Positions 8,850 through 32,808 of a stretch of DNA of 64,000 nucleotides are shown here, piece after piece. Numbering within the stretch: the stretch's first letter is position 1; each line of letters begins with the position of its first letter. The notes under the pieces were generated by a model. That model worked only from the letters and a program-made list of their open reading frames with translations. It searched no databases and was not told where the DNA came from. The DNA comes from Streptomyces graminilatus. GTDB lineage: Bacteria > Actinomycetota > Actinomycetes > Streptomycetales > Streptomycetaceae. Position numbers and translations under genes: made by a program. The stretch spans positions 1 through 64,000 of the forward strand of contig NZ_LIQQ01000121.1 in assembly GCF_001418565.1 (NCBI RefSeq). The letters run 5' to 3'.

Positions 8850-9797
8850 TCAGCTCACGAGGCCGGCGCTCTTGAGCCATTCCTTGGCGACCGTGCTGGA
8901 GTCCTCCTTGTCGTCGACGAGCTTCTTCATCATCTCCAGCAGGTCGGCGGTGGTGAGCTTCGCCGAGACACCGTTGAGCGCCGCCTTGGCCGTGTCGTTG
9001 ACCGCCGACTTGTAGACCAGGGGCGTGACGTTCTGCGAGGAGAAGAGGTGCTTCGGGTCCTCGAGGACCACCAGCTTGTCCTCCACGATGGCCGGGTCGG
9101 TGGTGTAGAGGTTGGCGGCCTGCACCTGGTTCGACTTGAGGAGCTTCACCAGGGTGGTCTGGGCGCCCGCGTCCAGCGGCTGGAACTTGCCGAACTCGAC
9201 ACCGTAGACCGAGTTCAGGCCGATCCAGCCCTGGGTGCGGGTCTTGAACTCGGAACCGGCGCCGAGGGTCAGGTTCTTGGCCACCGACTTGAGGTCGGCG
9301 AGGGTCTTGAGCTTGTACTTGGCGGCGGTCTCGGCGGTGACGGACACCGAGTCCTTGTCCTCGGCCGCTGCCGAGTCGAGGATCTCCACCGACGCGGGGA
9401 GCTTCGCCTTCAGGTCGGCGTTGACCTGTTCCGTGCTGGTCGCGGTGCTCTTCTTGTCGACCGCCACCGACAGCAGGGCGCCGTTGTACTCCGGGAAGAC
9501 GCCGATGCCGCCCTTGACGATCTGGTCGTAGTAGACCTCGCGGGCGCCGATGTCGAACTTCCGCGTCACCTTCAGACCCTTGGCCTCCAGGGCCTGGGCG
9601 TAGATCTCGGCGAGCAACTGGTTCTCGGGGAAGTTCGCCGAGCCGACGACGATGGTCTTGCCCTTGCCGCCGCTGTCGCCGCTGTCGCCCGTCAGCGGGT
9701 TGCTGTCGCTGTCACTGCCGCCGCCGCAAGCGGTGAGCGAGAGGGCGGCGATCAGGCCGAACGCGGCACCGCGGTAGATGCGTCGGGTGGTGCTCAT
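8850..9797 (-). CDS. Quaternary-amine ABC importer, substrate-binding lipoprotein
   Basis: A 315-residue extracellular binding protein of the OpuAC/OsmF family (glycine betaine, choline, carnitine and, in EgtU-type members, ergothioneine). A lipobox LTAC near residue 25 gives an acylated Cys and membrane anchoring, followed by a Gly/Ser/Asp linker. The mature domain starts with KTIVVGSANFPENQLLAEIY, the family's hallmark opening. ATG 9797 is chosen because the signal peptide starts there and GGAAA lies upstream. It is last in the order ATPase, permease, permease, binding protein. The actual ligand cannot be read from sequence; an aromatic-cage analysis would be needed. Confidence 0.92.
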   Translation of the reverse strand: MSTTRRIYRGAAFGLIAALSLTACGGGSDSDSNPLTGDSGDSGGKGKTIVVGSANFPENQLLAEIYAQALEAKGLKVTRKFDIGAREVYYDQIVKGGIGVFPEYNGALLSVAVDKKSTATSTEQVNADLKAKLPASVEILDSAAAEDKDSVSVTAETAAKYKLKTLADLKSVAKNLTLGAGSEFKTRTQGWIGLNSVYGVEFGKFQPLDAGAQTTLVKLLKSNQVQAANLYTTDPAIVEDKLVVLEDPKHLFSSQNVTPLVYKSAVNDTAKAALNGVSAKLTTADLLEMMKKLVDDKEDSSTVAKEWLKSAGLVS

Positions 9798-9868
9798 GGG
9801 GTGTTTCCTTTCTTGGAGCCCGCAGGCTCGGCAACTCTGAGGACGAGGAGAATCGAGGACGAGGAGAT

Positions 9869-10558
9869 TCAGGGCTTCGACGCCGGCGCCAGAAGGCCCG
9901 GCGAGACGATGACGCGCCGCAGCGCGGTGAACGCGACCTGGACGACGAGTGCCAGTGCGACGACGACGGTCGAGCCGCCGATGACCAGTTGGTAGTCGTT
10001 GCGGGAGAGCCCGTCGACGATGAACCGGCCGAGGCCCCCGAGTCCGGGGTAGGCGGCCACGGTCGCGGTGGCCACGACCTGGATCGCGGCCACCCGCAGC
10101 CCGAGGAGGATCAGCGGCAGCGCCATCGGCACCTCCACCCGCAGCAGGACCTCCCACTCGGTCATCCCGACCCCGCGCGCCGCGTCCCTGGTGTCGGGGT
10201 CGACACCCCGGACGCCCTCGAAGGTGTTGATGAGGATCGGCGGGATCGCCAGGGCGACCAGGGCGATCAGTACGGGCGTCGTGCTGAGCCCGGCGACGGT
10301 GACGACGAGGACCACCAGACCGAAGGTGGGGATCGCCCGCGCCAGGTTCGCCACGCTGGCCACGGCGAACGACCCCCGGCCGGTGTGCCCGACGAGCAGC
10401 CCGAGGGTCAGCCCGATGAGGGCGGCGAAGAACAGGGACAGACCGCTGTAGACGAGGTGCTGGGCGAGCCGGTGGGGGATTCCGTCGTCGCCGTGCCACT
10501 GGGCCGGGGACGTCAGCCAGTCGGCCACGAGCCGGATCTGGTTCAGGAAGTCGTTCAT
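9869..10558 (-). CDS. Quaternary-amine ABC importer, permease 2
   Basis: A 229-residue BPD-type inner-membrane permease of the OpuCB/ProW family with about six membrane helices. The EAA-type coupling loop reads DAARGVGMTEWEVLLRVEVP. ATG 10558 overlaps the stop of the preceding permease gene (ATGA), which fixes the start. It pairs with the other permease to form the heterodimeric channel. A 71-bp gap separates it from the binding-protein gene. Confidence 0.92.
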   Translation of the reverse strand: MNDFLNQIRLVADWLTSPAQWHGDDGIPHRLAQHLVYSGLSLFFAALIGLTLGLLVGHTGRGSFAVASVANLARAIPTFGLVVLVVTVAGLSTTPVLIALVALAIPPILINTFEGVRGVDPDTRDAARGVGMTEWEVLLRVEVPMALPLILLGLRVAAIQVVATATVAAYPGLGGLGRFIVDGLSRNDYQLVIGGSTVVVALALVVQVAFTALRRVIVSPGLLAPASKP

Positions 10559-11220
10559 GCGGCCGTCACCTTGCTCCGGGACCACGGGGTCAGCAGCCGC
10601 TGCGCGAGGACCAGGAGCGCGTCGGTGGCGAGTGCGAGCAGCATGATCAGGGCGATCGCGGTGATGATCGGGGTCGGGAAGTCGAGTTGGAGACCCCGGG
10701 TGATGTAGTACCCGAGTCCGCCCTGACCGATCAGCTGCCCCACCGCCACCAGGCTGATGGAGGACACGGCCGCGACCCGGACACCGGCGATGACGACGGG
10801 CACGGCGATCGGCAGTTCGACCTGGACGACCCGTCGTATGGCGCCGAATCCCATCGCGGTGGCCGCGAGCCGGACCGGTTCGGGGACCGACGCCAGGCCG
10901 TCCACGACGTTGGGCACCAGCACCGACAGCGTGTAGAGGGTCAGCGGGATGATCACCGTGCGCTCGGTGAGCCCCGTGTAGCGGACGAAGATCATGAACA
11001 GGGCCAGCGAGGGGATCGAGTACAGGACGTTGGACACCGTCAGCGAAGGCGGGTACAGCCAGCGGTAGCGGTGGCAGAGGATGCCGAGCGGTACGGAGAT
11101 GATCAGCCCGAACAGCACCGGCAGCAGCCCGAGTCTGAGGTGGATGGCCGTGTAGGAGGCCAGTTCACCGGCGTGGTCGCCGATCCACTGCCACCGGATC
11201 AGCGGCTCGTTGTCACTCAT
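10555..11220 (-). CDS. Quaternary-amine ABC importer, permease 1
   Basis: A 221-residue membrane permease of the same OpuC family with about six hydrophobic helices and the coupling segment RLAATAMGFGAIRRVVQVELP. The C-terminal GQLIGQGGLGYYITRGL is typical of the family. It overlaps the ATPase gene upstream (ATGA at 11217-11220) and the second permease downstream by 4 bp, so all three are translationally coupled. Confidence 0.92.
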   Translation of the reverse strand: MSDNEPLIRWQWIGDHAGELASYTAIHLRLGLLPVLFGLIISVPLGILCHRYRWLYPPSLTVSNVLYSIPSLALFMIFVRYTGLTERTVIIPLTLYTLSVLVPNVVDGLASVPEPVRLAATAMGFGAIRRVVQVELPIAVPVVIAGVRVAAVSSISLVAVGQLIGQGGLGYYITRGLQLDFPTPIITAIALIMLLALATDALLVLAQRLLTPWSRSKVTAA

Positions 11221-12368
11221 CCGATCCCACCGCCCGCTCCGTCCGCCACGACCGCACCGACCGCATCCGCGTCCGTCCCGGCGGTGTCGGCCGGCCCGGC
11301 GGACAGCTCGTGGGCGTCCGCGACTCCGACGACCGCGCCGTGCGTGTCCACGCCCACCGCCAGGCGGGCGGGCGAGAGCAACGCCGAGTCGAGGGCGGCC
11401 CGTGCGGAGTCGCCGACGAGGCTGAAGGTGTGGCCGAGCGGTGCCAGCGGTACGTCCGCCAGCGTGCCGCCCTCCGGCAGGCCGGCGACCGAGGCCCAGC
11501 CGAGCGGCCGACGGCCGGCGTCGACGACCAGCACCCAGGGCTCGCCCACCGCCCGGGCCGACGCCACCGATGAGGCCACCGGCAGCACCGGGCCGTCCCG
11601 CAGCGGCACATCGGCCGCGTTGACGAAGGACAGGCGGCGAATGCCCCGGTCGTGCCCCACGAACCCGGCGACGAAGTCGTCGGCGGGATCGGCGAGCAGT
11701 CGTTCAGGGGTGTCGAACTGCGCGAGTTTGCCACCGGTACGGAAGACGGCGATCTTGTCGCCGAGTTTGATCGCCTCGTCGATGTCATGGGTGACGAACA
11801 CGATCGTCTTGTGCAGTTCCTTCTGGAGCCGGATGAACTCCGCCTGCAACTCCGCCCGGACGATCGGGTCGACCGCGCTGAACGGCTCGTCCATCAGCAG
11901 CACGGGCGGGTCGGCGCCCAGCGCCCTGGCCACCCCGACACGCTGCTGCTGTCCGCCGGAGAGCTGGTTCGGATAGCGCTTGGCCATCTCGCTCGGCAGC
12001 CCGACCAGCTCCAGCAGTTCCGCCGCCCGTGCCCGCGCCTTCTTCCGGCTCCAGCCCAGCAGCAGCGGAACGGTGGCGATGTTGTCGAGGATGGTGCGGT
12101 GCGGGAACAGTCCCGCGTGCTGGATCACGTATCCGATGCCACGGCGCAGCTCCGGGGCGTTGACCTCGCGGATGTCCTTGCCGCGCAGGCTCACCGTCCC
12201 GGCCGTGGGCTCGACCATGCGGTTGACCATGCGCAGGGTGGTGGTCTTGCCGCAGCCCGAGGGACCGACCAGAACCGTGAGACCGCCCTCGGCCAACTCC
12301 AGCGACAGGTGGTCCACCGCCGTAGTCCCGTTTGGATAGTTTTTGCTCACCGCGTCGAATCTGATCAA
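11217..12368 (-). CDS. Quaternary-amine ABC importer, ATPase with CBS domains
   Basis: A 383-residue energy subunit of the OpuCA/ProV/EgtV type: Walker A GPSGCGKTTT (about 35-44), Q-loop, signature LSGGQQQR (about 135) and Walker B LLMDEPFSAVD (about 160). Two C-terminal CBS-like repeats (about 250-370) are typical of importers gated by ionic strength or nucleotides. The start is TTG at 12368, supported by an AAGGGG Shine-Dalgarno a few bases upstream and by the usual MIRFDxVSKxYP opening; GTG 12348 is an alternative. First gene of the leftward operon, divergent from the cyclodeaminase/lyase/amidohydrolase operon. Confidence 0.93.
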   Translation of the reverse strand: MIRFDAVSKNYPNGTTAVDHLSLELAEGGLTVLVGPSGCGKTTTLRMVNRMVEPTAGTVSLRGKDIREVNAPELRRGIGYVIQHAGLFPHRTILDNIATVPLLLGWSRKKARARAAELLELVGLPSEMAKRYPNQLSGGQQQRVGVARALGADPPVLLMDEPFSAVDPIVRAELQAEFIRLQKELHKTIVFVTHDIDEAIKLGDKIAVFRTGGKLAQFDTPERLLADPADDFVAGFVGHDRGIRRLSFVNAADVPLRDGPVLPVASSVASARAVGEPWVLVVDAGRRPLGWASVAGLPEGGTLADVPLAPLGHTFSLVGDSARAALDSALLSPARLAVGVDTHGAVVGVADAHELSAGPADTAGTDADAVGAVVADGAGGGIG

Positions 12369-12385
12369 AGCTGCCCCTTACCTGA

Positions 12386-12462
12386 CTGCATATAGTCATG
12401 CAGGGTTATCTGCTGCTGAATGACAGTCAATGCCCATCTGTGAATGGCGCGTTACATTCACA
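12386..12462. promoter_or_regulatory. Divergent promoter with two inverted repeats
   Basis: Between the importer operon (-) and the cyclodeaminase operon (+) lie two inverted repeats: CTGCAT (12386-12391) with ATGCAG (12398-12403), nested in TGACT-GCATAT-AGTCA; and TGTGAAT (12439-12445) with ATTCACA (12456-12462), separated by 10 bp. The first is close to the importer start, the second about 45 bp before the cyclodeaminase ATG. Both look like dimeric-regulator operators (GntR- or TetR-like, inferred). No regulator gene is adjacent. Confidence 0.55.
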
Positions 12463-12504
12463 CGAAATCAGGCCAAGATGTCCGAATTACGAGGATAGGC
12501 AGGC

Positions 12505-13506
12505 ATGAAACCGGTCTGGTTCACCTTTTTGAACGGCTCGGACATCGAGCAGCTGGAGCTGACCGACGCCGAGATCCTCGAAGCCGTCGAGGACGGACTG
12601 CGCGCCCAGGGACAGGGCGAGACGGTGATCGAACCGCGCGTCCACCTCGTGCCCGACGCCGCGTTCGACGGCCATTTCAACGTGCTGCGCGGCTATGTCG
12701 CGCCGCTCTCGCTGGCCGGGGTCAAGATCGTGGGCGACTTCGTCGGCAACTACAAGTCGGGGCTGCCCTCGGAGATGGCGCTGCTCAACCTCTTCGACCC
12801 GCGCACCGGAATGCCCGTGGCCGTGGTCGACGCGACCGCCCTCACCGAGATGCGCACCGGCGCGCTCACCGCGCTCGGGGCACGCCATCTGGCCCGCCCG
12901 GACTCCGGGGTGCTCGGCCACATCGGCGCCCGCGCCACCTCGTACTGGAACGTCCGTCTTCTGGACCGGCTCTTCGACCTGACCGAGATCCGCGTCCACT
13001 CGCGCCGCCCGGAGAGCCGCGAGGCCTTCGCCGCGCGCCTGGAGCGGGACCTGGGCAAGCCGGTCGTCGTCACGGAGGACTGGCAGAGCTGTGTGGAGGG
13101 CGCGGACATCGTGGTGGAGGCTTCCCGCCTCGAACGTCCGGAGCCGCTGCTGAGGACCGAGTGGATCACCCCAGGCGCCCTGGTCGTGCCCTACGGGACG
13201 AACAGCGCGGTGGAGCTCGGCCTCACGGACATCATGGACAAGATCGTCGTCGACGACTGGGGCCAGGCACACGCCGGACCGTTCGGCGCGCTGCGCGCCC
13301 ACGTGGACTCGGGCAGGCTCAACAGAACCAATCTGCATGGGGAGTTGGGGGAGATCGTCGCGGGCCGCAAGCCCGGCCGGGAGAGCCCCGAGGAGACGAA
13401 CCTGTTCTGGCACCGGGGCCTCTCCCTCTCCGACATCGCGCTGGGCGCAGCCATGCTGAGGAAGGCCGAGGAGCGCGGCCTCGGCCAGAAACTCCGCTTC
13501 TCATGA
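12505..13506 (+). CDS. Ornithine cyclodeaminase / mu-crystallin family protein
   Basis: A 333-residue NAD(P)-dependent enzyme of the OCD/mu-crystallin fold, whose members are cyclodeaminases, ketimine reductases and amino-acid dehydrogenases. Visible are the substrate-loop NYKSGLPSEMAL (about 79-90), the EMRTGALTALGA helix with its conserved Arg (about 115), and a Rossmann nucleotide site at GHIGARAT (about 137). The C-terminal SLSDIALGAAML is typical. ATG 12505 follows an AGGATAGG-like RBS. It overlaps the lyase gene by ATGA. In this operon a role in reducing or deaminating an imine/amino-acid intermediate is likely, but the substrate is unknown. Confidence 0.85.
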   Translation: MKPVWFTFLNGSDIEQLELTDAEILEAVEDGLRAQGQGETVIEPRVHLVPDAAFDGHFNVLRGYVAPLSLAGVKIVGDFVGNYKSGLPSEMALLNLFDPRTGMPVAVVDATALTEMRTGALTALGARHLARPDSGVLGHIGARATSYWNVRLLDRLFDLTEIRVHSRRPESREAFAARLERDLGKPVVVTEDWQSCVEGADIVVEASRLERPEPLLRTEWITPGALVVPYGTNSAVELGLTDIMDKIVVDDWGQAHAGPFGALRAHVDSGRLNRTNLHGELGEIVAGRKPGRESPEETNLFWHRGLSLSDIALGAAMLRKAEERGLGQKLRFS

Positions 13507-15077
13507 CGGATCCCGGCACGGGCACCGGCATCCCGGAGGTCGTCGTCGACGGGCGGACACTGTCGTACGACGATGTCGTCGCCGTCGCCCGCCACGGCGC
13601 CCGAGTCGCCCTCGCGGACGAGGTGTCGCCCCGGCTGGAGCGCGAACGGGCCGTCGTCGAGGACATCGTCGACCGCCAGGTGCCGACGTACGGTCTGACG
13701 ACGGGACTCGGCACCCGCTCCTCGTACGCCCTGCCGCGCGCCGAACTGGCCGAGTTCAGCGTCCGTACGGTACGCGGACGGGCCAACGCGGTCGGCGCTC
13801 CGCTGCCGGTCCCCGTCGTCCGCGCCGCCGTCCTCGCCCGGGTGAACGGCATCGCGGGCGGCGGCAGCGGGGTGCGACCGGAGATCCCCGGGCTGCTCGT
13901 GGCGATGCTCAACGCGCGCGTGCATCCCGTGATCCCCGAGACGGGGTCGATCGGCGCCTCCGATCTGTGCCAGCTCGCGCATGTCGGCCTGGTCGTCATC
14001 GGCGAGGGGCGCGCCGAGTTCGGCGGGGAGGTGCTGGACGGCGCCACGGCGCTGCGGCGGGCCGGTCTGGCGCCGGCCGCGCTCGGGCCCAAGGACGGGC
14101 ATGTGCTGTGCAGCGCGAGCCCGCTGGCGGCCGGGCTGGGCGCGCTCGCGCTGCACGAGGCCACCGCGCTCCTCGCACTGGCCCAGGCGGTCACGGCGCT
14201 GACCTACGAGGGTTTCCGGGCGAACACGAGTCCGCTCGACGCCCGGGTACTGGGTCTGCGCCCCGCCCCCGGCCAGTCCCGTGCCACGCGCGAACTGCTC
14301 GCCCTCCTCGCCGGGGGTGAGCTGGGCGATCCGCGCAACGCCCGGCGGGTCCAGGACCCCGTCAGCCTGCGCTGTGCCGCACAGGTGCACGGCGCCGCGT
14401 ACGCGGCCCTGGACTTCGCGGGCGCCGCGCTGGATCCGGAACTGAACGGCTGCGGCGACAACCCGGTGGTGCTGCCCGACAGCGGTGAGATCCTCTCCTC
14501 CGGCAACTTCCACACCCCGGCGCTGGCGCTCGCCCTCGACACGCTCGCGCTGGCCCTGACCCAGACCGCGGCGGTCTCCGCCGAGCGGATGCGCCGGCTG
14601 CTCGACCCCGCCGTCAGCGGACTGCCGGCGAACCTCTCGCCGTACGGCCCGGAGCGCTCGGGCTTCGCGCCCCTGACCAAGACCGCGCAGGCACTGGTCG
14701 CCGAGATCCGCATGCTGTCCGTGCCGGTGTCCACCGATCCCCGGCACGGCGCGGACGCCGTCGAGGACGACTCGACCAACGCGGCGCTCGGCGCCCGGCG
14801 GCTGGCCACGATCCTCGCCCGGCTGCGGCCGCTGCTCGCCGTGGAGGCGGTGGTCGCCGCGCAGGCGGTTGACCTGGCGGGCCCCGCCTCCCTGGGCCAT
14901 GGCCCCCGGCTGCTGCACCGGGCGATCCGGGCGGCCGTGCCCCGGCTGGAGGACGACCGGCCCTGCGGGGTGGACGTGGAGGCGGTGAGTGACGGCATCC
15001 TTGGGTCCGACGACGTCCGGGGCGCACTGCGCGCGCTGCTGGAAGAATCGTCAGTCCCGGCGGGAGGAACGTCATGA
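13503..15077 (+). CDS. HAL/PAL-fold lyase lacking the canonical MIO motif
   Basis: This 524-residue protein has the histidine/phenylalanine ammonia-lyase fold over its whole length: YGLTTGLG (Tyr63), SGVRPEIPGLL, HPVIPETGSIGAS, SLRCAAQVHG, and EDDSTNAALGARRL near 420. Its active site differs from working MIO enzymes. The Ala-Ser-Gly triad that cyclises to MIO is A152-S153-D154, with the glycine missing. The His of the LSHAAG segment is Arg93, the Asn of LNGTQ is Ser204, and the Tyr of AYSLRC is Val287. Arg290 and Tyr63 are kept. It is therefore unlikely to be an ordinary ammonia lyase. Ergothionase, a trimethylamine lyase I recall as MIO-less and HAL-related, is a plausible functional analogue given the betaine importer next door. 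Coupled by ATGA overlaps on both sides. Confidence 0.85.
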   Translation: MTDPGTGTGIPEVVVDGRTLSYDDVVAVARHGARVALADEVSPRLERERAVVEDIVDRQVPTYGLTTGLGTRSSYALPRAELAEFSVRTVRGRANAVGAPLPVPVVRAAVLARVNGIAGGGSGVRPEIPGLLVAMLNARVHPVIPETGSIGASDLCQLAHVGLVVIGEGRAEFGGEVLDGATALRRAGLAPAALGPKDGHVLCSASPLAAGLGALALHEATALLALAQAVTALTYEGFRANTSPLDARVLGLRPAPGQSRATRELLALLAGGELGDPRNARRVQDPVSLRCAAQVHGAAYAALDFAGAALDPELNGCGDNPVVLPDSGEILSSGNFHTPALALALDTLALALTQTAAVSAERMRRLLDPAVSGLPANLSPYGPERSGFAPLTKTAQALVAEIRMLSVPVSTDPRHGADAVEDDSTNAALGARRLATILARLRPLLAVEAVVAAQAVDLAGPASLGHGPRLLHRAIRAAVPRLEDDRPCGVDVEAVSDGILGSDDVRGALRALLEESSVPAGGTS

Positions 15078-15997
15078 CCAGCGTCGACGTGCACCAGCAT
15101 CTGTGGACCCCACCGCTGCTGGCGGCCCTGCGGGCGCGCCGCGAGCCGCCGTTCCTCGACGGCTGGACCCTGTATCTGCGCGGTGAGCCGCCCTACGAGA
15201 TCCCGCCCGCCGATCACGACATCGCCGGCCGTGCGGAACTCGCCGCCGCCGACGGTCTCGGCCGGGTGCTCGTCTCGCTGTCCGCCCCGATCGGCGTGGA
15301 GTGGCTGCCCGGCGCCGAGGCCCGGCCGCTGCTGGACGCCTATCACGACGGATCGGCCGCCCTTCCGAAACCTTTCGACGCCTGGGCCGCCGCCTGCGTG
15401 CGGGACATCGACGCCAACGCGACGGCCAAGGACCTCGACCGGGGGTTCGCCGGTCTCCAGCTCCCGGCGAACGCCCTTGCCGACGCCGCCGGTTACGCGC
15501 GCTGCGCCCCGCTCCTGGACCTGCTCGAAGAGCGTGACCTGCCGCTGTTCGTGCACCCGGGACCGGCGGCGGGCGAACCTGCGGGGCCGGGCTGGTGGCC
15601 CGCGATGGTCCCGTACGTCCAGCAGATGCACTCCGCCTGGTTCGCCTTCCGCGCCTTCGGCCGGCCCCGCCATCCGCACTTGCGCGTGTGCTTCGCCCTG
15701 CTGGCCGGGCTCGCCCCGCTGCACGGGGAGCGTTTCGCCGCCCGGGGCGACGGCGCGGACGGAGAAGCGGACCCGGACGTCTTCGTCGACACCTCGTCCT
15801 ACGGTCCCCGCGCGGTCGACGCGATCGTTCGCGTCCTCGGCGCCGACGCCGTCGTCCAGGGCTCGGACCGGCCCTACGCGGAGCCCCCGCTGCACCCCGG
15901 ATTCGGCCTGGGCGGAGCGGCGGCGTACGCCTTCCGTATCGCCAATCCACGGCGGCTGCTCACCGGACGGGACGACCGTCGAAAGCTTTTGATCTGA
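15074..15997 (+). CDS. Metal-dependent amidohydrolase family protein
   Basis: A 307-residue TIM-barrel hydrolase of the amidohydrolase-2 type: an N-terminal HxH metal site in VDVHQHLW (residues 4-11), a later metal His in LFVHPG (about 157), a tryptophan- and histidine-rich middle, and a C-terminal catalytic Asp in VQGSDRPY (about 265). No signal peptide; cytosolic. Its ATG overlaps the lyase stop, so the three genes form one coupled operon. It may hydrolyse a C-N or C-C bond, or decarboxylate, a product made by the upstream lyase (inference). Confidence 0.85.
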   Translation: MTSVDVHQHLWTPPLLAALRARREPPFLDGWTLYLRGEPPYEIPPADHDIAGRAELAAADGLGRVLVSLSAPIGVEWLPGAEARPLLDAYHDGSAALPKPFDAWAAACVRDIDANATAKDLDRGFAGLQLPANALADAAGYARCAPLLDLLEERDLPLFVHPGPAAGEPAGPGWWPAMVPYVQQMHSAWFAFRAFGRPRHPHLRVCFALLAGLAPLHGERFAARGDGADGEADPDVFVDTSSYGPRAVDAIVRVLGADAVVQGSDRPYAEPPLHPGFGLGGAAAYAFRIANPRRLLTGRDDRRKLLI

Positions 15998-17821: not shown

Positions 17822-18586
17822 CTACGGCCTGGCGCCCCCGCTCACCTCACGTTCGCGCAGACCGAGCGGGTCGACGACCTCGCGCAGCAGCCGCAGTTCG
17901 GTCTCGTCGGGCAGTCGGGTCTCGGGGGCGCCGGTCGCGTCGAGCGCGAAGCCGGTGTTCGTGTGGACCTCCTGGGGGGTGACGCCGGGATGCAGCGAGC
18001 GCACGCGCAGGCGCCCGTCGTCGCCGTAGTCGAGGACCGCGAGGTTGGTGATCACCACGCCCAGGTGGTGGAAGCGCAGCCCCTTGACGCCCCGCGCACG
18101 GTCGTTGCCCACCCCGCAGACCACGTCGACCTTCTCGACGAAGACCTTCGGGGTGTGCCGGGCCACCCAGTAGTCGGTGCGGTGGTTGGCCGTGTTGCCC
18201 GGAGCGCCGCGCACACCGATGAGCTGCCGGGTGGGCCGGCGCCAGTCGCCGATCAGGGAGATGTTCTGGTTGCCGTACCGGTCGATCTGGCTGGCCCCCA
18301 TCATGCTCTGGCGCCGGCCACTGGCGACGATGTCGAAGACCCGGCGGTACGGCACCCAGCCCTCGACGACGCCCCCGTCCGCCGCTGTTCGGCCGAGCGG
18401 TGGCGGGTCGCTCATGAAGTAGGCCTCGCCGTCGGTCAGCACCAGGTCCGGGCTGGTGGTCAGACGGGCGAGGCGCGCTCCGACCGAGGGCAGCACACCG
18501 GCCGTGTGCGCGAGCACCTCCCCGGCGTCGCGCCACACATCGGCACAGGCCACGGCGCACACTTCCGCGCGGGTGATCTCCGTCAT
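17822..18586 (-). CDS. ipdB: IpdB-like CoA-transferase family beta subunit
   Basis: A 254-residue family I CoA-transferase beta subunit. ATG 18586 overlaps the alpha-subunit stop (ATGA) and gives a length close to Mycobacterium IpdB (about 250). Features include YFMSDPPPLG, GASQIDRYGNQNIS and the C-terminal TELRLLREVVDPLGLRE. In steroid degraders IpdAB acts as a ring-opening hydrolase on COCHEA-CoA during C/D-ring breakdown rather than as a CoA transferase. The assignment rests on partner gene, length and neighbours. Confidence 0.82.
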   Translation of the reverse strand: MTEITRAEVCAVACADVWRDAGEVLAHTAGVLPSVGARLARLTTSPDLVLTDGEAYFMSDPPPLGRTAADGGVVEGWVPYRRVFDIVASGRRQSMMGASQIDRYGNQNISLIGDWRRPTRQLIGVRGAPGNTANHRTDYWVARHTPKVFVEKVDVVCGVGNDRARGVKGLRFHHLGVVITNLAVLDYGDDGRLRVRSLHPGVTPQEVHTNTGFALDATGAPETRLPDETELRLLREVVDPLGLREREVSGGARP

Positions 18587-19461
18587 CGGCTCTTCTCCTG
18601 TCCCTCGCGGTTGGCGTGGAACTCCGCCACGGCCTCGTGGTACGCCTGTTCGTCGCCGTCGAGGAACGTCTTGCGGAACAGCCGCCAGGAGTCGGTGTCC
18701 CGCGCCGCCGACGCGTAGTGCGCCTGGAAGGCCTCGTCCCGTCCGTAGTCGGGGTCGCAGGAGGTGAAGTGGGCGCCACGGGGGGTCTCGATCACCCCGT
18801 TGACGAAGAGGCGGCTGATCAGCAGTGACTGGGCGGGTCCGGCGGTGAGCAGATCCTGCGGCTCCACGATCCGCTCGGTGCTCACGTAGCAGCGGTCGGC
18901 CGCCATCGCGAACAGGTCGTCGAAGTACGGATCGGGGCCCAGGTACTGGGCGTTGCCCGTCCGGTCGGCGCGGTTGACGTGCACCAGGGCGATATCCAGC
19001 CGCAGGGCCCGCATCGCGACGTACTCCTCGTCGGCGTACGGCGAGGCGATCGTCACCAGGTCCGGGTTCATCGTGAGAACGTCGGAGCCGAGGCCCGCGC
19101 GGGTGGGCAGGAAGGACAGGCGGCTCGCGGCGGCCCGCAGGCCGGTGACGAACATGCCCTCGTCGTACTCGGCGGTCTCCACGGCGCCCTGTTCCCGTAC
19201 CGCGCGGAAGTGCGGGTCGAGGGCGATGCTGTCCAGCGACACGAAGCCGTAGACGAGCTTGCGGACCCGCCCGGCGGCGCACAGCAGCCCCACGTCCGGA
19301 CCGCCGAACGTGACGACGGTCAGGTCACGCACACCGGTGCGCAGGAGTTGGCGTACGAGTGCCATCGGTTTGCGTCGCGATCCCCACCCGCCGATCCCGA
19401 TCGTCATGCCCGACTCGACGGCGCCGGCGAAGTCCTCCAGGGACATCGACTTGTCACCCAC
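18583..19461 (-). CDS. ipdA: IpdA-like CoA-transferase family alpha subunit
   Basis: This 292-residue protein has the same length I recall for mycobacterial IpdA. It opens with the family I CoA-transferase motif GMTIGIGGWGSRRKPMALV and contains TVVTFGGPDVGLL. It forms an alpha2beta2-type complex with the overlapping downstream gene. Its start lies about 155 bp from the divergent ipdC-like gene with a palindromic operator between them, indicating co-regulation. Substrate in known systems: a ring-opened HIP-derived CoA ester. Confidence 0.83.
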   Translation of the reverse strand: MGDKSMSLEDFAGAVESGMTIGIGGWGSRRKPMALVRQLLRTGVRDLTVVTFGGPDVGLLCAAGRVRKLVYGFVSLDSIALDPHFRAVREQGAVETAEYDEGMFVTGLRAAASRLSFLPTRAGLGSDVLTMNPDLVTIASPYADEEYVAMRALRLDIALVHVNRADRTGNAQYLGPDPYFDDLFAMAADRCYVSTERIVEPQDLLTAGPAQSLLISRLFVNGVIETPRGAHFTSCDPDYGRDEAFQAHYASAARDTDSWRLFRKTFLDGDEQAYHEAVAEFHANREGQEKSR

Positions 19462-19500
19462 GGACCGCTCCCTCCCACGCTCTCACCCATACGGAGTCTT

Positions 19501-19522
19501 ACCTAGCAAACAATTGTTAGGT
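19501..19522. promoter_or_regulatory. KstR2-like palindromic operator
   Basis: ACCTAGCAA and TTGTTAGGT form a 9-4-9 inverted repeat with one mismatch in the shared promoter of the ipdAB- and ipdC-like operons. The core at 19505-19518 fits AnCAA-nnnn-TTGnT, which matches the KstR2 consensus AnCAAGnnCTTGnT (from memory) except at the two inner G/C positions. A TetR-family, acyl-CoA-responsive repressor is expected. No kstR2 gene is in the window. Confidence 0.65.
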
Positions 19523-19616
19523 TACGTTGGCTCGACCGACAACCCCTCGGCAGCCGGGCCCGGGGAATCGTCCCCACCCCGGCGAGCAGCGCGCGAAGGA
19601 GAAAAGGAGCCCCGGT

Positions 19617-20726
19617 ATGAGCGCCTCCACCAGCCCGGTCCATCCCGCCCGCCCTCTCCATCCCGCCCTGCACACGGCGCTGTGCGACCTGGTCGGCGTC
19701 CGCTACCCGATCGTGCAGACCGGCATGGGGTATGTGTCGGGCCCCGAGCTGACGGCGGCCACGGCGGCGGCGGGCGGGCTCGGCATCCTGGCGAGCGCGA
19801 CGCTCACCCTGGACGAGACCCGGGACGCCGTCCGTGCCGTCCGGGAGCGCACCGACGCGCCGTTCGGGGTGAACATGCGCGGCGACTCCCCCGACGTCCT
19901 GGAGCGCGGGCGCCTCCTGGTGCGCGAGGGCGTGAAGATCGCGTCCTTCGCGCTCGCGCCGCACGAACGCGTCGTCCGCGAGCTGAAGGACTCGGGGCTG
20001 ATCGTCATCCCGTCCGTCGGCGCCCGCCGCCATGCCGAGAAGGTCCAGGCGTGGGGTGTGGACGCGGTCGTCGTGCAGGGCGGTGAGGGCGGCGGACACA
20101 CCGGGGGCGTACCCACCTCGATCCTGCTCCCCCAGGTCGTGGACGCCGTCGGCATACCGGTCATCGCGGCCGGCGGGTTCCGTGACGGGCGGGGACTGGT
20201 GGCCGCGCTCGCCCAGGGTGCCGTGGGCATCGCGATGGGCACGCGGTTCCTGCTGACCAGCGACAGCACGGTGCGCGACTCGGTCAAGGCCGAGTATCTC
20301 GGGCGGGGCGTCAACGACACCGTGGTCACCCCCGTCCTCGACGGCATCCCCCAGCGCGTACTGCGCACCGACGCGGTGGAACGGCTGCTGCGGGAGCGGG
20401 CACCCGCGCGGCTCGTCCGTTCGCTGCGGCACGCCGTCGCGTTCCGGAAGGTCTCCGGCACGTCGTGGTCCGACCTGGTCCGCGAGGGACTGGCGATGCG
20501 GCGCGGGCATGAACTGGGCTGGTCCCAGGTCGTGATGGCGGCGAACACCCCGATGATGCTGCGCGCGAGCATGGTCGACGGCCGGACCGACCTGGGCACC
20601 CTCGCCTCCGGCCAGGTCGCCGGTGTCATCGACGACCTGCCCAGTTGCGCCGAACTCGTCGAACGCGTCATCGCGGAGGCCGACGCCGTCCTCACCCGCC
20701 TGACGACCGCCGGAGCAAAACCGTGA
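19617..20726 (+). CDS. ipdC: IpdC-like nitronate monooxygenase family flavoprotein
   Basis: A 369-residue FMN-dependent TIM-barrel protein of the nitronate monooxygenase / 2-nitropropane dioxygenase family. The opening GVRYPIVQTGMGYVSGPELTAA, the GGLGILASATL loop, the phosphate site VQGGEGGGHTGG and IPVIAAGGFRDG are all present. In steroid degraders IpdC works beside IpdAB in C/D-ring catabolism. ATG 19617 has an AAAAGGAG Shine-Dalgarno 8 bp upstream. First gene of the rightward operon, under the KstR2-like site. Confidence 0.82.
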   Translation: MSASTSPVHPARPLHPALHTALCDLVGVRYPIVQTGMGYVSGPELTAATAAAGGLGILASATLTLDETRDAVRAVRERTDAPFGVNMRGDSPDVLERGRLLVREGVKIASFALAPHERVVRELKDSGLIVIPSVGARRHAEKVQAWGVDAVVVQGGEGGGHTGGVPTSILLPQVVDAVGIPVIAAGGFRDGRGLVAALAQGAVGIAMGTRFLLTSDSTVRDSVKAEYLGRGVNDTVVTPVLDGIPQRVLRTDAVERLLRERAPARLVRSLRHAVAFRKVSGTSWSDLVREGLAMRRGHELGWSQVVMAANTPMMLRASMVDGRTDLGTLASGQVAGVIDDLPSCAELVERVIAEADAVLTRLTTAGAKP

Positions 20727-20800
20727 ATGCGGCCAACAGCGGCCGGGCCGACCTCGCCGCGATCCGGCCCCGCGACCGTGACCGCGACACAGGAGGACCC

Positions 20801-21565
20801 ATGGGCTATGAGTTCGTCAAGGCCGGCGTCGACGCACGCGGCATCGCCGAGGTCGTCGTCGACTGTCCTCCGGTCAACGCCCTGCCGGTGGCGGGCTGGT
20901 ACCAGTTGGCGGAGACCGTCGAACAGCTCGGCCGCGACCCGGCTGTACGGGTGGTGGTGCTGCGTGCCGAGGGCCGTGGTTTCAACGCCGGTGTCGACAT
21001 CAAGGAGTTGACGGCCGACACCGGCCACACCGCGGTGATCGCGGTGAACCGTGGCTGCTTCGCCGCGTTCGCAGCGGTCTACGACTGTGCGGTGCCGGTC
21101 GTGACAGCGGTCCATGGTTTCTGTCTGGGCGGCGGGATCGGTCTGGTCGGCAACTCGGACGTGATCGTGGCGGCCGAGGACGCCTACTTCGGGCTGCCGG
21201 AGGTGGACCGGGGCGCGCTGGGCGCCGCGACGCACCTGTCCCGTCTCGTCCCGCAGCACCGCGCCAGAGCGATGATGTACACCTGTGCCACCGCGTCCGC
21301 CGCCGAGCTGCACGCCTTCGGTTCGGTGCTCGACGTCGTACCGGCCGGCCGACTGCGGGACCGGGCCCTGGAGATAGCCGCCGACATCGCCGGGAAGAAC
21401 CCGGCGGTGATCCGTGCGGCCAAGGAGGCCTTCAACGGCATCGACCTGTGGGACGTCAAGCGCAGTTACCGCTACGAACAGGGCTTCACCTTCGAGATCA
21501 ACCTGTCGGGCGTCGCCGCCGAGGTCCGCGACACCTTCGGCGGCCGTACGGACGGGGAGGGGTGA
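20801..21565 (+). CDS. echA20: EchA20-like enoyl-CoA hydratase/isomerase family protein
   Basis: A 254-residue crotonase-fold protein with an AEGRGFNAGVDIKEL loop (oxyanion hole) and VHGFCLGGGIGLVGNSDVIVA. EchA20 (about 247 residues) is a crotonase-family hydrolase that opens the last carbocyclic ring of HIP-derived CoA esters. Length, the GFNAGVDIKE segment and position beside ipdABC support this. ATG 20801 is set by a strong AGGAGG 5 bp upstream; there are 74 bp from the ipdC-like stop and 3 bp to the next gene. Confidence 0.8.
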   Translation: MGYEFVKAGVDARGIAEVVVDCPPVNALPVAGWYQLAETVEQLGRDPAVRVVVLRAEGRGFNAGVDIKELTADTGHTAVIAVNRGCFAAFAAVYDCAVPVVTAVHGFCLGGGIGLVGNSDVIVAAEDAYFGLPEVDRGALGAATHLSRLVPQHRARAMMYTCATASAAELHAFGSVLDVVPAGRLRDRALEIAADIAGKNPAVIRAAKEAFNGIDLWDVKRSYRYEQGFTFEINLSGVAAEVRDTFGGRTDGEG

Positions 21566-21568
21566 GCC

Positions 21569-22717
21569 ATGGATCTCACCTGGAGTGCGGAGGACGAGGC
21601 GTTCCGGCAGGAGGCCCGGGAGTGGCTCGCGGCGAACGTCCCGGCGGACCCGCTGCCGTCCGGTGACACCCGCGAGGGGTTCGCCGCCCATCTGGAGTGG
21701 GAGCGCGCCCTGTTCGAGGCGCGCTGGTCGGTGGTGTCCTGGCCCGAGGCGTACGGCGGCCGGGACGCGTCCCTGTGGCAGTGGCTGGTCTTCGAGGACG
21801 AGTACCACCGGGCCGGGGCGCCCGCCCGGGTCACCCAGAACGGGATCTTCCTGCTGGCCCCGACCGTCTTCGCGTTCGGTACGCATGAGCAGCAGCGGCG
21901 CATTCTGCCGAGGATGGCCGCCGCCCAGGATCTGTGGGCACAGGGCTGGTCCGAGCCCGGCGCGGGCAGCGACCTCGCGGCCATCCGCAGCCGGGCGGTC
22001 CGGGACGAGGGGGCCGGTGGCTGGCGCCTGACCGGCCAGAAGACCTGGACGACCCGAGGCGCCTTCTGCACCCACCTCTTCGGGCTCTTCCGTACGGATC
22101 CGGAGGCGGAGCGTCATCGAGGCCTCACCTATTTCCTCGTTCCGTTGGACGCTCCCGGGGTCACGGTCCGTGGTTTCGAACGCCTCGACGGCGACGAGGG
22201 GTTCGCCGAGGTCTTCCTCGACGACGTCCTCGTGCCCGATGCCGATGTGCTCGGCGGGGTCGGGGAGGGCTGGCGGGTGGCGATGGCGACGACCGGGTCC
22301 GAGCGCGGGCTGACCCTGCGTTCCCCCGGCCGCTTCCTGCACACCGCCGACCGGCTGCTCGACCTGGCGCGGACAAAGGAGGCGCAGGGGGCGGAGGGGG
22401 TGGGGGTGCATCGGGACCGGGTCGTGCAGTCGTGGATCGAGGCCCAGGCGTACGAGCTGTTCACCCTGGAACAGGTCACGTCGATCGTCGAAGGGCGGGA
22501 GATCGGCGCCGAGTCCAGCCTGAACAAGCTGTTCTGGTCCCAGCTCGACATCGCCCTGCACGAGACAGCCGCCGAACTGCTCGGGCCGGAGGCGGAGATC
22601 GACGCCCCCTGGAGCCGAGGCTTCCTCTTCTCCCTCGCGGGCCCCATCTACGCGGGCACGAACGAGATCCAGCGCAACATCGTCGCCGAGCGGCTGCTCG
22701 GCCTGCCGAGGAGGTGA
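21569..22717 (+). CDS. Acyl-CoA dehydrogenase, IpdE1-like subunit
   Basis: A 382-residue FAD-dependent acyl-CoA dehydrogenase, full length for the family. The N-terminal helical domain begins WSAEDEAFRQEAREWL, the middle beta domain contains QGWSEPGAGSDLA (FAD/substrate site), and the C-terminus has the family signature YAGTNEIQRNIVAERLLGLP. An immediately following second, shorter paralogue suggests an alpha2beta2 heterotetramer like IpdE1-IpdE2 (FadE30-FadE33), which desaturates 5-OH-HIP-CoA. Subunit identity is inferred from context. Confidence 0.85.
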   Translation: MDLTWSAEDEAFRQEAREWLAANVPADPLPSGDTREGFAAHLEWERALFEARWSVVSWPEAYGGRDASLWQWLVFEDEYHRAGAPARVTQNGIFLLAPTVFAFGTHEQQRRILPRMAAAQDLWAQGWSEPGAGSDLAAIRSRAVRDEGAGGWRLTGQKTWTTRGAFCTHLFGLFRTDPEAERHRGLTYFLVPLDAPGVTVRGFERLDGDEGFAEVFLDDVLVPDADVLGGVGEGWRVAMATTGSERGLTLRSPGRFLHTADRLLDLARTKEAQGAEGVGVHRDRVVQSWIEAQAYELFTLEQVTSIVEGREIGAESSLNKLFWSQLDIALHETAAELLGPEAEIDAPWSRGFLFSLAGPIYAGTNEIQRNIVAERLLGLPRR

Positions 22718-22726
22718 CCGGGAGCG

Positions 22727-23797
22727 ATGCGGTTCGCCGTAACCGAACGGGACACGGCTCTCGCCGAGGCCGCCGGTGAGGTGCTGGCCAAACAGGCCGG
22801 TGCCGAACAGATCCGGGCAGGCTGGCCGGGTGGCCGCATCGAGAGCGTCCACGGCGTGTGGCGCACGCTGGCCGGGGTCGGTGTCACCGGCGCCCTGGTC
22901 CCCGAGCACAGCGAAGGCCTGGGCACCGGCACCGGCACCGGCCTCGGCCTCGGCCTCGGCCTCGACGAGAACGCGCTCCCGCCGTTGCTGGAGACCCTCG
23001 GCCGCAGCGGGCTCCCGGTCCCCGCCGCCGAGACAGTGGCGGTCGGCGCCCCCCTGCTGGCCACCGCGGGCGCGCCTCAACTCCCGTCCGTACTGCGGGG
23101 GTCGGCGCTGCTCACCGTCTCCCTCACCCGCGCTGCCCCGGTCCCCTTCGCCGCGCTCGCCGACCTGATCGCCGTACGTCAGGGCGACGGGCTGCGCCTG
23201 TACGCGCGCGACGAAGTGGAGACCGAGCCGGTCGACTCGGTGGACGGCTCCCGGTGGCTGGCCCGGGTGCGCGCTCCGGCGGGCGGCGGGCTGTTGCTGG
23301 CCGAGGGGCCTGCCGAACTGGCGGTCGCGTACCGGCGCGGGGTGCTGGCCACGGCAGCCCTGCTGGTCGGACTCGCCGGGCGGATGCTCGAACTGACCGT
23401 GGCTCATGTCCGGGCACGGCACCAGTTCGGCGTACCGGTCGGCTCGTTCCAGGCGGTCAAACACGCGTTGGCCGACGTGGAGTTGGCGGTACGGTTCGCC
23501 CGCCCGGCAGTCCTCGCGGCGGGCTGGGCCCAGGCTGCCGGGGACCCGGAGACCGCCGTACGGACGTCGATGGCGAAGGTGCTCGCCTCGGAAGCGGCCC
23601 GGAAGGCGGCCCGTACGGCGCTCCAGTGCCATGGCGCCATGGGGTACACCACCGAGTACGACCTCCACCTGTACGCCAAACGGGCCTGGGCCCTGGCCGC
23701 CGACTGGGGCGGCCCGACAGAACACCGGGAGTCCATCGCCCGGCGGCTGGGCCTCACCGGAGCGGCCGACAGGGGCGGCGAGGGGGCGGGCGCATGA
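22727..23797 (+). CDS. Acyl-CoA dehydrogenase, IpdE2-like partner subunit
   Basis: A 356-residue acyl-CoA dehydrogenase paralogue starting 9 bp after the first. The C-terminal half is clear: ARHQFGVPVGSFQAVKHALAD and HGAMGYTTEYDLHLYAKRAW, the latter typical of the second subunit of heterotetrameric steroid dehydrogenases. Near residues 66-79 a hexanucleotide-repeat tract encodes alternating Gly-Thr then Gly-Leu, an unusual low-complexity insertion in the N-terminal domain. RBS GGAG precedes the ATG. The stop overlaps a short relic frame. Confidence 0.83.
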   Translation: MRFAVTERDTALAEAAGEVLAKQAGAEQIRAGWPGGRIESVHGVWRTLAGVGVTGALVPEHSEGLGTGTGTGLGLGLGLDENALPPLLETLGRSGLPVPAAETVAVGAPLLATAGAPQLPSVLRGSALLTVSLTRAAPVPFAALADLIAVRQGDGLRLYARDEVETEPVDSVDGSRWLARVRAPAGGGLLLAEGPAELAVAYRRGVLATAALLVGLAGRMLELTVAHVRARHQFGVPVGSFQAVKHALADVELAVRFARPAVLAAGWAQAAGDPETAVRTSMAKVLASEAARKAARTALQCHGAMGYTTEYDLHLYAKRAWALAADWGGPTEHRESIARRLGLTGAADRGGEGAGA

Positions 23798-23961
23798 GCG
23801 GAATCCGTCGGGACCGGAGCGCCGTCGTCGGCCTCGGTGACCAACACGCCCTCGCACTCGCGGCCGAGAAGAACCCGGCGAACGGCCCCCCGGCTGTGGA
23901 CGGCATCAGCGCCGGCATCGGCATCGGCATCGGCATCGGGAGTGAAAGGGCGGGCACATGA
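23794..23961 (+). pseudogene. Truncated, decayed duplicate of the SDR gene 5' end
   Basis: A 55-codon frame overlaps the dehydrogenase stop (ATGA) and the SDR start (ATGA). Its first 25 residues (MSGIRRDRSAVV...GLGDQHALALAAE) copy the SDR N-terminus (MSGICRNRVAIV...GLGREHALALAAE) but lack the TGAGQ segment of the nucleotide-binding loop. DNA similarity is obvious over about 75 bp. After the duplicated part comes a run of GGCATC hexamers encoding Gly-Ile repeats. It cannot bind NAD. It may still be translated and couple the SDR gene to the operon (inference). Confidence 0.7.
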
Positions 23962-24839
23962 GCGGGATTTGCCGGAACCGGGTCGCCATCGTGACCGGGG
24001 CGGGACAGGGTCTCGGTCGCGAGCACGCGCTCGCACTCGCGGCCGAGGGAGCCCGGGTCGTCGTCAACGACCTCGGCGAGGCCGCGAAGGCGGTGGCCGA
24101 GGAGATCGGGGCGGCCGGGGGCGTCGCCGTCGCCGATCTGGGGGACGTCAGCGACTGGGACTACGCGGAGCGGCTGATCGGCCGGGCCGTCGCCGAGTTC
24201 GGCGCGCTGCACGCACTGGTGAACAACGCGGGCATCAATCGTGACCGGATGCTGGTGTCGATGACGGAGGAAGACTGGGACCTCGTCCTCAAGGTCGACC
24301 TCAAGGGGCATGCGGCGCCATTGCGGCACGCCGCCGCTTACTGGCGGGAGATGAGCAAGCAGGGCCGGCCGGTCGAAGCGCGGGTCGTCAACACCAGCTC
24401 GGGCGCCGGGCTGATGGGCAGCGTCGGCCAGGGCAACTACGGCGCCGCGAAGGCAGGTATCGCAGCGCTCACCGTGATCGCCGCCGCCGAACTGGCCCGG
24501 TACGGCGTCACCGTGAACGCGATAGCCCCCTCCGCCCGCACCCCGATGACCGAGGCGGTCGAGGCGTTCGCCGAGAAGATGCGCGCACCGGAGTCCGGCT
24601 TCGACGCGCCGCACCCCGGCAACGTCTCACCGCTGGTGGTGTGGCTGGCCTCGGCCGGTTCGGGCGACGTCACCGGCCGCGTCTTCGAGGCCGAGGGCGG
24701 CACGATCAGCCTCGCCGACGGCTGGCAGCACGGGCCCCGACGGGTCCGCGACCGCCGCTGGACTCCGGCCGAGATCGGCCCGGCGGTACACGGACTGCTC
24801 ACCGAAGCGCCCTCGCCCGCACCGGTGTACGGCGCCTGA
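23958..24839 (+). CDS. Short-chain dehydrogenase (Rv3548c-like)
   Basis: A 293-residue classical SDR: NAD(P) motif TGAGQGLG (about 13-20), VVVNDLG acidic loop favouring NAD, NNAG (about 93), catalytic Ser in NTSSGAG, and YGAAK as the YxxxK pair (about 160). The C-terminus is extended by about 40 residues compared with minimal SDRs and resembles the 17beta-HSD4/MFE-2-like SDRs found next to echA20-ipdABC in mycobacteria. Likely a hydroxyacyl-CoA dehydrogenase step in HIP catabolism. The stop lies inside the first unit of the downstream repeat array. Confidence 0.85.
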   Translation: MSGICRNRVAIVTGAGQGLGREHALALAAEGARVVVNDLGEAAKAVAEEIGAAGGVAVADLGDVSDWDYAERLIGRAVAEFGALHALVNNAGINRDRMLVSMTEEDWDLVLKVDLKGHAAPLRHAAAYWREMSKQGRPVEARVVNTSSGAGLMGSVGQGNYGAAKAGIAALTVIAAAELARYGVTVNAIAPSARTPMTEAVEAFAEKMRAPESGFDAPHPGNVSPLVVWLASAGSGDVTGRVFEAEGGTISLADGWQHGPRRVRDRRWTPAEIGPAVHGLLTEAPSPAPVYGA

Positions 24840-32757: not shown

Positions 32758-32808
32758 TCCGGTTGAAACACATGCTCGTTGAACATTTGGCCGTAAGGGG
32801 GGACTGCC

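Follow-up and report, generated by a model that had tools for sequence, protein, structure and literature searches.

Background

Fungi and many bacteria produce the antioxidant ergothioneine, and plants and animals take it up; to our knowledge, hardly anything is known about the recycling of its oxidised forms in soil. The subject of this report is a seven-gene locus of Streptomyces graminilatus located at positions 8850-15997 of contig NZ_LIQQ01000121.1 (assembly GCF_001418565.1), of which positions 1 to 64,000 were analysed and are referred to below as the window. The locus encodes an OpuC/EgtUV-type importer, a protein of the ornithine cyclodeaminase (OCD)/mu-crystallin family, a lyase with the fold of histidine ammonia-lyase (HAL), and an amidohydrolase. 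Among the closest described systems is a catabolic pathway for ergothioneine sulfonate in Agrobacterium radiobacter, which was reportedly the subject of a 2022 study by Yan, Huang and Zhang (ACS Catal. 12:4825), known here by its title.

In PMC13405746, ergothionase is described as an enzyme without the 4-methylideneimidazole-5-one (MIO) group that has been firmly identified in few organisms, and two pathways are cited: the in vitro ergothioneine sulfonate pathway of 2022, named with A. radiobacter, and a gut pathway of 2025 with a thiourocanate desulfhydrase. Ergothionase and onward breakdown to glutamate are mentioned in PMC7653990. The locus resembles the A. radiobacter pathway in its proposed substrate class, as judged by title; it differs in host, being found in Streptomyces, and in the presence of its own importer, an amidohydrolase, and a putative operator that is conserved. 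The pathway type is therefore probably known already, and the word ‘undescribed’ in the first-pass annotation, which was made from the sequence alone, was too strong in view of the title of the 2022 in vitro reconstitution. The open literature searched, which consisted of titles and the beginnings of abstracts, with subscription papers mostly outside it, gave no description of the operon of actinobacteria or the importer that goes with it, nor of the Arg signature reported below or the amidohydrolase.

Results and discussion

The locus is a real, conserved catabolic module. With moderate confidence, its sequence features point to S-oxygenated ergothioneine, most likely ergothioneine sulfonate, as the compound that is degraded. 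This substrate is preferred to plain ergothioneine or hercynine because of an Arg at the HutH His83 position of the lyase, the OCD-family partner, the hut genes that neighbor it in other genomes, and the exporter-like genes found beside it in a few lineages.

The HAL-fold lyase

The lyase gene (13503-15077, plus strand), whose product is proposed to be a trimethylamine lyase acting on S-oxygenated ergothioneine, matches PF00221 (Lyase_aromatic) at E 2.1e-133 with 445.9 bits against a gathering score of 27.3. Scores against the curated HutH models are high (399-405 bits) but under their cut-offs. The MIO loop reads GSIGASDL, compared with GSVGASGDL in HutH, and is one residue short, so that the Ala-Ser-Gly triad is missing; the loop Ser is replaced by Ala in some orthologs (GSIGAADL), and the Treponema ergothionase loop, SSIGEGDI, carries the same deletion. 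The position of the HutH base Tyr280 is occupied by Val in the window lyase and by V, L, or I (31, 16, and 8 sequences) among 55 Arg-type rows of the alignment. The lyase is thus MIO-less and ergothionase-like, as had been proposed from the sequence, with one difference: the HutH His83 position, which is His in ergothionase, is Arg93 here.

The predicted structure of the lyase (predicted local distance difference test score, pLDDT, 86.8) gave ergothionase 6s7j as the best match, with a Z score of 43.9, and HutH 7tqr as its equal at 43.1; the fold alone consequently does not decide the identity of the enzyme. The fold of the Treponema denticola ergothionase (6s7j, 6s7q) superimposes with a root-mean-square deviation of 2.3 over 492 aligned positions at 30% sequence identity. 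Treponema ergothionase reportedly also accepts ergothioneine sulfonic acid. Family and fold are likewise shared with HutH, from which the window lyase differs in the missing triad and base.

A total of 80 lyase sequences from relative loci were grouped into 39 clusters at 75% identity, of which 31 were short-loop, scored as MIO-less by loop length, and eight were full-loop; the canonical HutH in this count was taken from L120. Among the short-loop clusters, 20 of 31 carried Arg at the position of His83; none of the eight full-loop clusters did. A single branch (support 0.918) separated short-loop from full-loop lyases in a FastTree phylogeny of 50 sequences, and the Arg state was split between two clades, parted at a node with support 0.923, each of which had members adjoining an OCD gene. 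The 55 Arg-type rows comprise 51 distinct lyases, L037, L042, L045, and L052 being contigs counted twice. Lyase frames shorter than 400 residues, including the cut frames on host contig C109 and in L105, were left out of the counts, and the Arg-type lyase of L049 (amidohydrolase nearby, no OCD) is missing from the tally, having been lost in frame extraction. The lyase-cluster, OCD-cluster, and Arg-neighbor counts exclude locus L060 as well as two sets of short loci, L061-L074 and L115-L118.

In HAL and in tyrosine ammonia-lyase, the residue at the His83 position touches the far end of the substrate side chain. An Arg at this position therefore suggests a substrate whose side chain has an anionic tip. 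Near importer genes in Rhizobium lusitanum (L093, 40-1440) lies the gene for a HutH-like lyase whose MIO loop shows a gap of three residues (GSVGY---LI).

Conservation of gene linkage

Within the genus, the lyase was found at E <= 1e-90 in 12 of 246 genomes, that of the window included. Importer and OCD genes stood beside it in nine of the other 11 genomes and only the amidohydrolase gene in the remaining two (L026, L032); the amidohydrolase gene was missing in three of the 11 (L024, L025, L028). With a broader scan, 28 loci were obtained, belonging to Streptomyces, Actinophytocola, Pseudonocardia, Thermoleophilia, Solirubrobacteraceae, Nocardioidaceae, and Rhizobiales, and at least one of the importer, OCD, and amidohydrolase genes lay near the lyase gene in 26 of them (the exceptions were Pseudonocardia L053 and L060). 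The proteobacterial loci in the analysis as a whole were drawn from plasmids and one contig collection. The suggestion that these genes form a linked catabolic module held up in this comparison, with the importer linkage recurring across genomes. An OCD gene was present within 12.5 kb of 45 of the 55 Arg-type rows (42 of the 51 distinct lyases). Both OCD and amidohydrolase genes were found near 16 of the distinct lyases, OCD only near 26, amidohydrolase only near seven, and neither near two. A gene for a thiamine-diphosphate enzyme overlaps the start of the Arg-type lyase gene in Pseudonocardia L053 (8286-9992).

The OCD-family protein and its neighbors

The OCD gene (12505-13506, plus strand) overlaps the lyase gene by 4 nt, as the lyase gene does the amidohydrolase gene. 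Its product matches PF02423 (OCD_Mu_crystall) at E 1.2e-57, with 195.7 bits against a gathering score of 24, and its nearest solved relative is a protein of the archaeal alanine dehydrogenase/OCD family (1omo, 151.7 bits). The proposed function is that of an NADPH-dependent, desulfonating 2-sulfourocanate reductase. Characteristic residues of the subfamily are R45, H57, R62, K74, G141, R143, and W302-H-R-G; across 19 cluster representatives, G141 and R143 are each conserved at 97% or more, and many cationic residues are kept in the subfamily. The sequence S166-R-R suggests NADPH as the cofactor. The position aligned with Asp219, which we take to be the catalytic residue of alanine dehydrogenase, is occupied by N, M, V, I, or H.

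Conservation within the gene set is highest for the OCD protein, with 59-66% identity in 11 genomes among 396 genomes of the same phylum searched outside the genus, and it was matched in 84 plasmid records at E <= 1e-60, 69 of them from Rhizobium. The 56 OCD loci formed 19 clusters at 80% identity, and a cluster was scored positive if any member had the neighbor in question. An Opu-type binding protein was present in 10 clusters, an Arg-type lyase in 11, hut genes in eight, and a PhnD/SsuA-like protein in six. Genes annotated as hutC occurred in several clusters. In Paracoccus and on a Comamonadaceae plasmid, the OCD gene lies amid hutU, hutI, hutG, hutH, and a gene for formimidoylglutamate deiminase. 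A gene labelled as a putative sulfate exporter (YeiH in Polaromonas) is found in the same cluster, not always adjoining the OCD gene, in Rhizobium, Polaromonas, and Paracoccus; such exporter-like genes point to sulfite, and hence to a sulfonate substrate.

Several variants of the OCD gene and its surroundings were also noted. OCD matches in two pieces (L048, 9017-9965) or from residue 97 only (L034, 9153-10001) perhaps represent broken or shifted Streptomyces genes. In Rhizobium johnstonii pRL12 (L086, 3263-16095), one stretch contains genes for a LysR regulator, the sulfate exporter, a CoA-transferase, a short-chain dehydrogenase/reductase (SDR), MaoC, HutC, an Arg-type lyase, OCD, a PhnD/SsuA-like protein, and the importer, with the labels hutH and ornithine cyclodeaminase. 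Two luciferase-like (LLM) flavin monooxygenase genes lie between the importer and OCD-lyase genes in L076 (9594-11989), L082, L083, and L059.

The importer

The four minus-strand genes encode a binding protein, two permeases, and an ATPase, all of the families expected for an importer of the EgtUV/OpuC type. The substrate-binding lipoprotein (8850-9797) matches PF04069 (OpuAC, E 1.4e-49) and has the lipobox LTAC; the permeases (9869-10558 and 10555-11220) match PF00528 (BPD_transp_1) at E 1.7e-23 and 5.2e-21; and the proV-like ATPase (11217-12368, TTG start) matches PF00005 (ABC_tran), with 305.4 bits against the NCBIfam proV model, below the cut-off of 326.6. Solved relatives of the binding protein include precursors of choline and nicotine sensors and EgtUC. 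By alignment, the aromatic cage raised in the first-pass annotation is conserved only in part: at the positions which we take to form the quaternary-amine box, F56, Y104, and Y231 match the aromatic positions of the solved choline/nicotine-sensor precursor, and two further positions are aligned with Asp149 and Gln255. The window binding protein differs in these two non-aromatic positions from those of EgtUV, OpuC, and OpuB importers, which have the same components. Similar changes were found in other actinobacterial binding proteins, whereas those of rhizobia retain the residues normally found there. The out-of-frame sequences of L102, L103, and L105 were left out of this alignment, and L080_b and L093_b served as comparison rows only.

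Proposed pathway

In the proposed route, the importer would take the betaine into the cell and the lyase would eliminate trimethylamine without an MIO electrophile, which would be dispensable in this step because a quaternary amine is in itself an effective leaving group. Arg93 would hold the sulfonate on imidazole C2. The OCD-family protein would then reduce 2-sulfourocanate by adding hydride to the sulfonate-bearing C=N carbon, with loss of sulfite, and the resulting urocanate would be converted to glutamate by the ordinary Hut enzymes. The amidohydrolase would be accessory and might handle the sulfinate form. The 9.6-Mb host genome encodes a canonical HutH on contig C283 and the urocanase HutU on contig C109. 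The first-pass annotation had stated that no urocanase-like gene is present; this is correct for the locus itself and does not extend to the rest of the genome or to three other Streptomyces (L024, L036, L054), which have such a gene near the locus.

If the proposal is true, an Arg in place of HutH His83, together with a shorter MIO loop and an OCD partner, would sort genomes into probable users of ergothioneine or hercynine and probable users of oxidised ergothioneine, and the labels ‘histidine ammonia-lyase’ and ‘ornithine cyclodeaminase’ on rhizobial plasmids would need correction.

Several observations weigh against sulfonate catabolism. Exporter, hut, and sulfur genes were all absent from the locus in a panel search of the window, and an exporter-like gene was present in only two of the 19 OCD clusters. 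The nucleotide motif of the OCD protein is non-classical, G141-x-R143 (GAR) standing in place of the GxGxxA/G of the classical dehydrogenase type, and Asp149 and Gln255 depart from the aromatic box of the binding protein. The association between Arg and OCD does not reach significance once the sequences are clustered: OCD was present in 16 of 20 Arg-type clusters and five of 11 other short-loop clusters (75% identity; Fisher p = 0.106), the figure for Arg-type clusters became 11 of 15 (p = 0.23) when the divergent Arg clade was excluded, and many of the loci concerned had been found via OCD. Two Arg-type lyases lack both OCD and amidohydrolase neighbors, those of L053 and of L051, the latter close to the end of its contig; three His-type lyases (L077, L078, L084) also have OCD; and two OCD loci (L079, L089) have canonical HutH only. 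The divergent Arg clade (L099, L100, L101, L106, L108, L109) may not be MIO-less throughout, since its short loop keeps x-A/S-G (ASG in L109, TSG in L106).

Alternative substrates

Catabolism of plain ergothioneine or hercynine, in which the lyase would be a true ergothionase or hercynine lyase and the OCD-family protein and amidohydrolase would process thiourocanate or a hydrated product, is considered unlikely. The enzyme class and fold that the lyase shares with ergothionase are in its favor, as are the three ergothionase-like His-type lyases with OCD and the occurrence, in L024, L036, and L054, of urocanase-like and cysteine dioxygenase (CDO)-like genes next to another MIO-less lyase. Against it stand the Arg, rather than His, at the position that touches the side-chain tip, the suggestion of sulfite made by the exporter-like genes of three genera, and the gene content of L110-L113. 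In these loci, from actinobacterial family f18, a His-type MIO-less lyase is accompanied by hut genes, with no OCD within the 7-20 kb stretches examined, a pattern consistent with OCD being needed only if the lyase product has an extra group at imidazole C2. A similar OpuC-like importer is encoded in L110-L112, L113 is a 7-kb contig without an importer, and an RpiR-type regulator is encoded in L110, L112, and L113. L110-L113 are candidates for hercynine catabolism, and L110-L112 look more like a hercynine/ergothioneine route than the window does. Within the earlier proposal that the substrate is a trimethylated amino acid, plain ergothioneine or hercynine is disfavored by the Arg, the OCD partner, and the hut and exporter-like genes.

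The second cluster, which consists of the urocanase-like gene, a His-type MIO-less lyase gene (GSIGQADL), and a gene for a CDO-like cupin, is located at 10681-16102 in L024, 12401-17823 in L036, and 12392-17859 in L054, and is perhaps an ergothioneine route; genes of the GntR and 3HCDH-like families are present in it in L024 and L054.

Less probable still as a substrate is some other betaine, or a sulfonium compound, whose side chain is anionic and from which the lyase would form a non-imidazole acrylate. Such a substrate would suit the CoA-transferase, SDR, and MaoC genes added in Rhizobium clusters and the two flavin monooxygenase genes added in others. The hut genes, which handle imidazole compounds, in eight of the 19 OCD clusters and the hutC-annotated genes in several of them argue against it. 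Dimethylsulfoniopropionate or another sulfonium substrate, which had been raised by the flavin monooxygenases of some rhizobia, was set aside in view of the hut neighbors.

An ordinary histidine ammonia-lyase operon is highly improbable and was rejected: the PF00221 match and the high HutH model scores would agree with it, but the MIO triad and Tyr280 are missing, the loop Ser is not conserved, and a canonical HutH is encoded elsewhere in the host genome.

The amidohydrolase

The last gene of the operon (15074-15997, plus strand) encodes an Amidohydrolase_2-like enzyme for which a role in non-redox C-S cleavage is possible. No Pfam family was matched by the window protein at 1e-3; its Actinophytocola relative (L049) matches Amidohydro_2 at 6.5e-11. 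The metal-ligand set of that family (HxH, His, Asp) is present as H7, H9, H161, and D265 and is invariant in nine of nine sequences. The structure model was unusable (pLDDT 46). The nearest solved relatives, which are very distant, are ACMSD and the isoorotate (uracil-5-carboxylate) decarboxylases, and Leu is aligned with what we take to be the position of the catalytic His of ACMSD.

Among the relative loci, the amidohydrolase is confined to actinobacteria, where its gene lies within 12.5 kb of 23 of the 51 distinct Arg-type lyases. Among 25 distinct loci with an amidohydrolase, six (L027, L040, L049, L050, L056, L092) have a CDO-like match immediately after its gene. By analogy, the amidohydrolase might be a metal-dependent C-S cleaving enzyme that exchanges SO2 on imidazole C2 for a proton, since its nearest solved relatives replace CO2 by a proton. 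It would then provide a second, interchangeable way of removing sulfur, non-redox and acting on a sulfinate formed by the neighboring CDO-like cupin, alongside reductive removal from the sulfonate by the OCD-family protein. The presence of OCD or amidohydrolase near 49 of the 51 distinct Arg-type lyases is the reason for considering them as alternatives. This role is a doubtful one and is put forward tentatively.

The divergent promoter region

Gene calls and Pfam matches agreed with the layout given in the first-pass annotation, in which the importer diverges from a tight OCD/lyase/amidohydrolase operon across 136 bp containing two inverted repeats. This promoter region, common to both units (12369-12504), was aligned with those of 23 other Streptomyces loci; 28 loci had been tried, five of which gave no region, and 21 of the 24 regions are distinct, three being duplicate contigs. 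A putative operator, the conserved palindrome CTGCATATAGTCATGCAG, is located at 12386-12403. Of the two arms of the palindrome CTGCATATNGTCATGCAG, CTGCAT on the left was found in all 24 regions and ATGCAG on the right in 22 (21 and 20, respectively, of the 21 distinct regions). Only its own site was matched in the host genome at up to two mismatches, and a reversed control pattern likewise gave one match. The second putative operator (12439-12462) is the inverted repeat TGTGAATG..CATTCACA, which is exact in the window and is not conserved in this form, TGTGAAT being present in two of the 24 aligned regions.

L022 (15361-16257) and several other Streptomyces have a gene for an RpiR-type regulator next after that of the binding protein. 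It is absent from the window, and the nearest copy in the host genome (77%) is on contig C109, next to a lyase gene that is truncated at the end of the contig. In L049, a copy of the palindrome with three mismatches lies just ahead of the RpiR gene, which may be chance.

Neighboring genes in the window

An acyl-CoA catabolic cluster is located beside the locus at 17822-24839 and includes two genes of the CoA-transferase family, two of the acyl-CoA dehydrogenase family, and an SDR gene. CoA-transferase gene starts matching those of the window were seen in the near relative L022, the only locus searched for them. Cytochrome P450 and GH43 neighbors of the window had orthologue-like matches, among the relative loci, in L022, L033, and L034 only (61% for the P450 in L034). 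Polysaccharide genes of the UDP-N-acetylglucosamine 2-epimerase and polysaccharide biosynthesis (flippase-type) families are located at 31624-35149.

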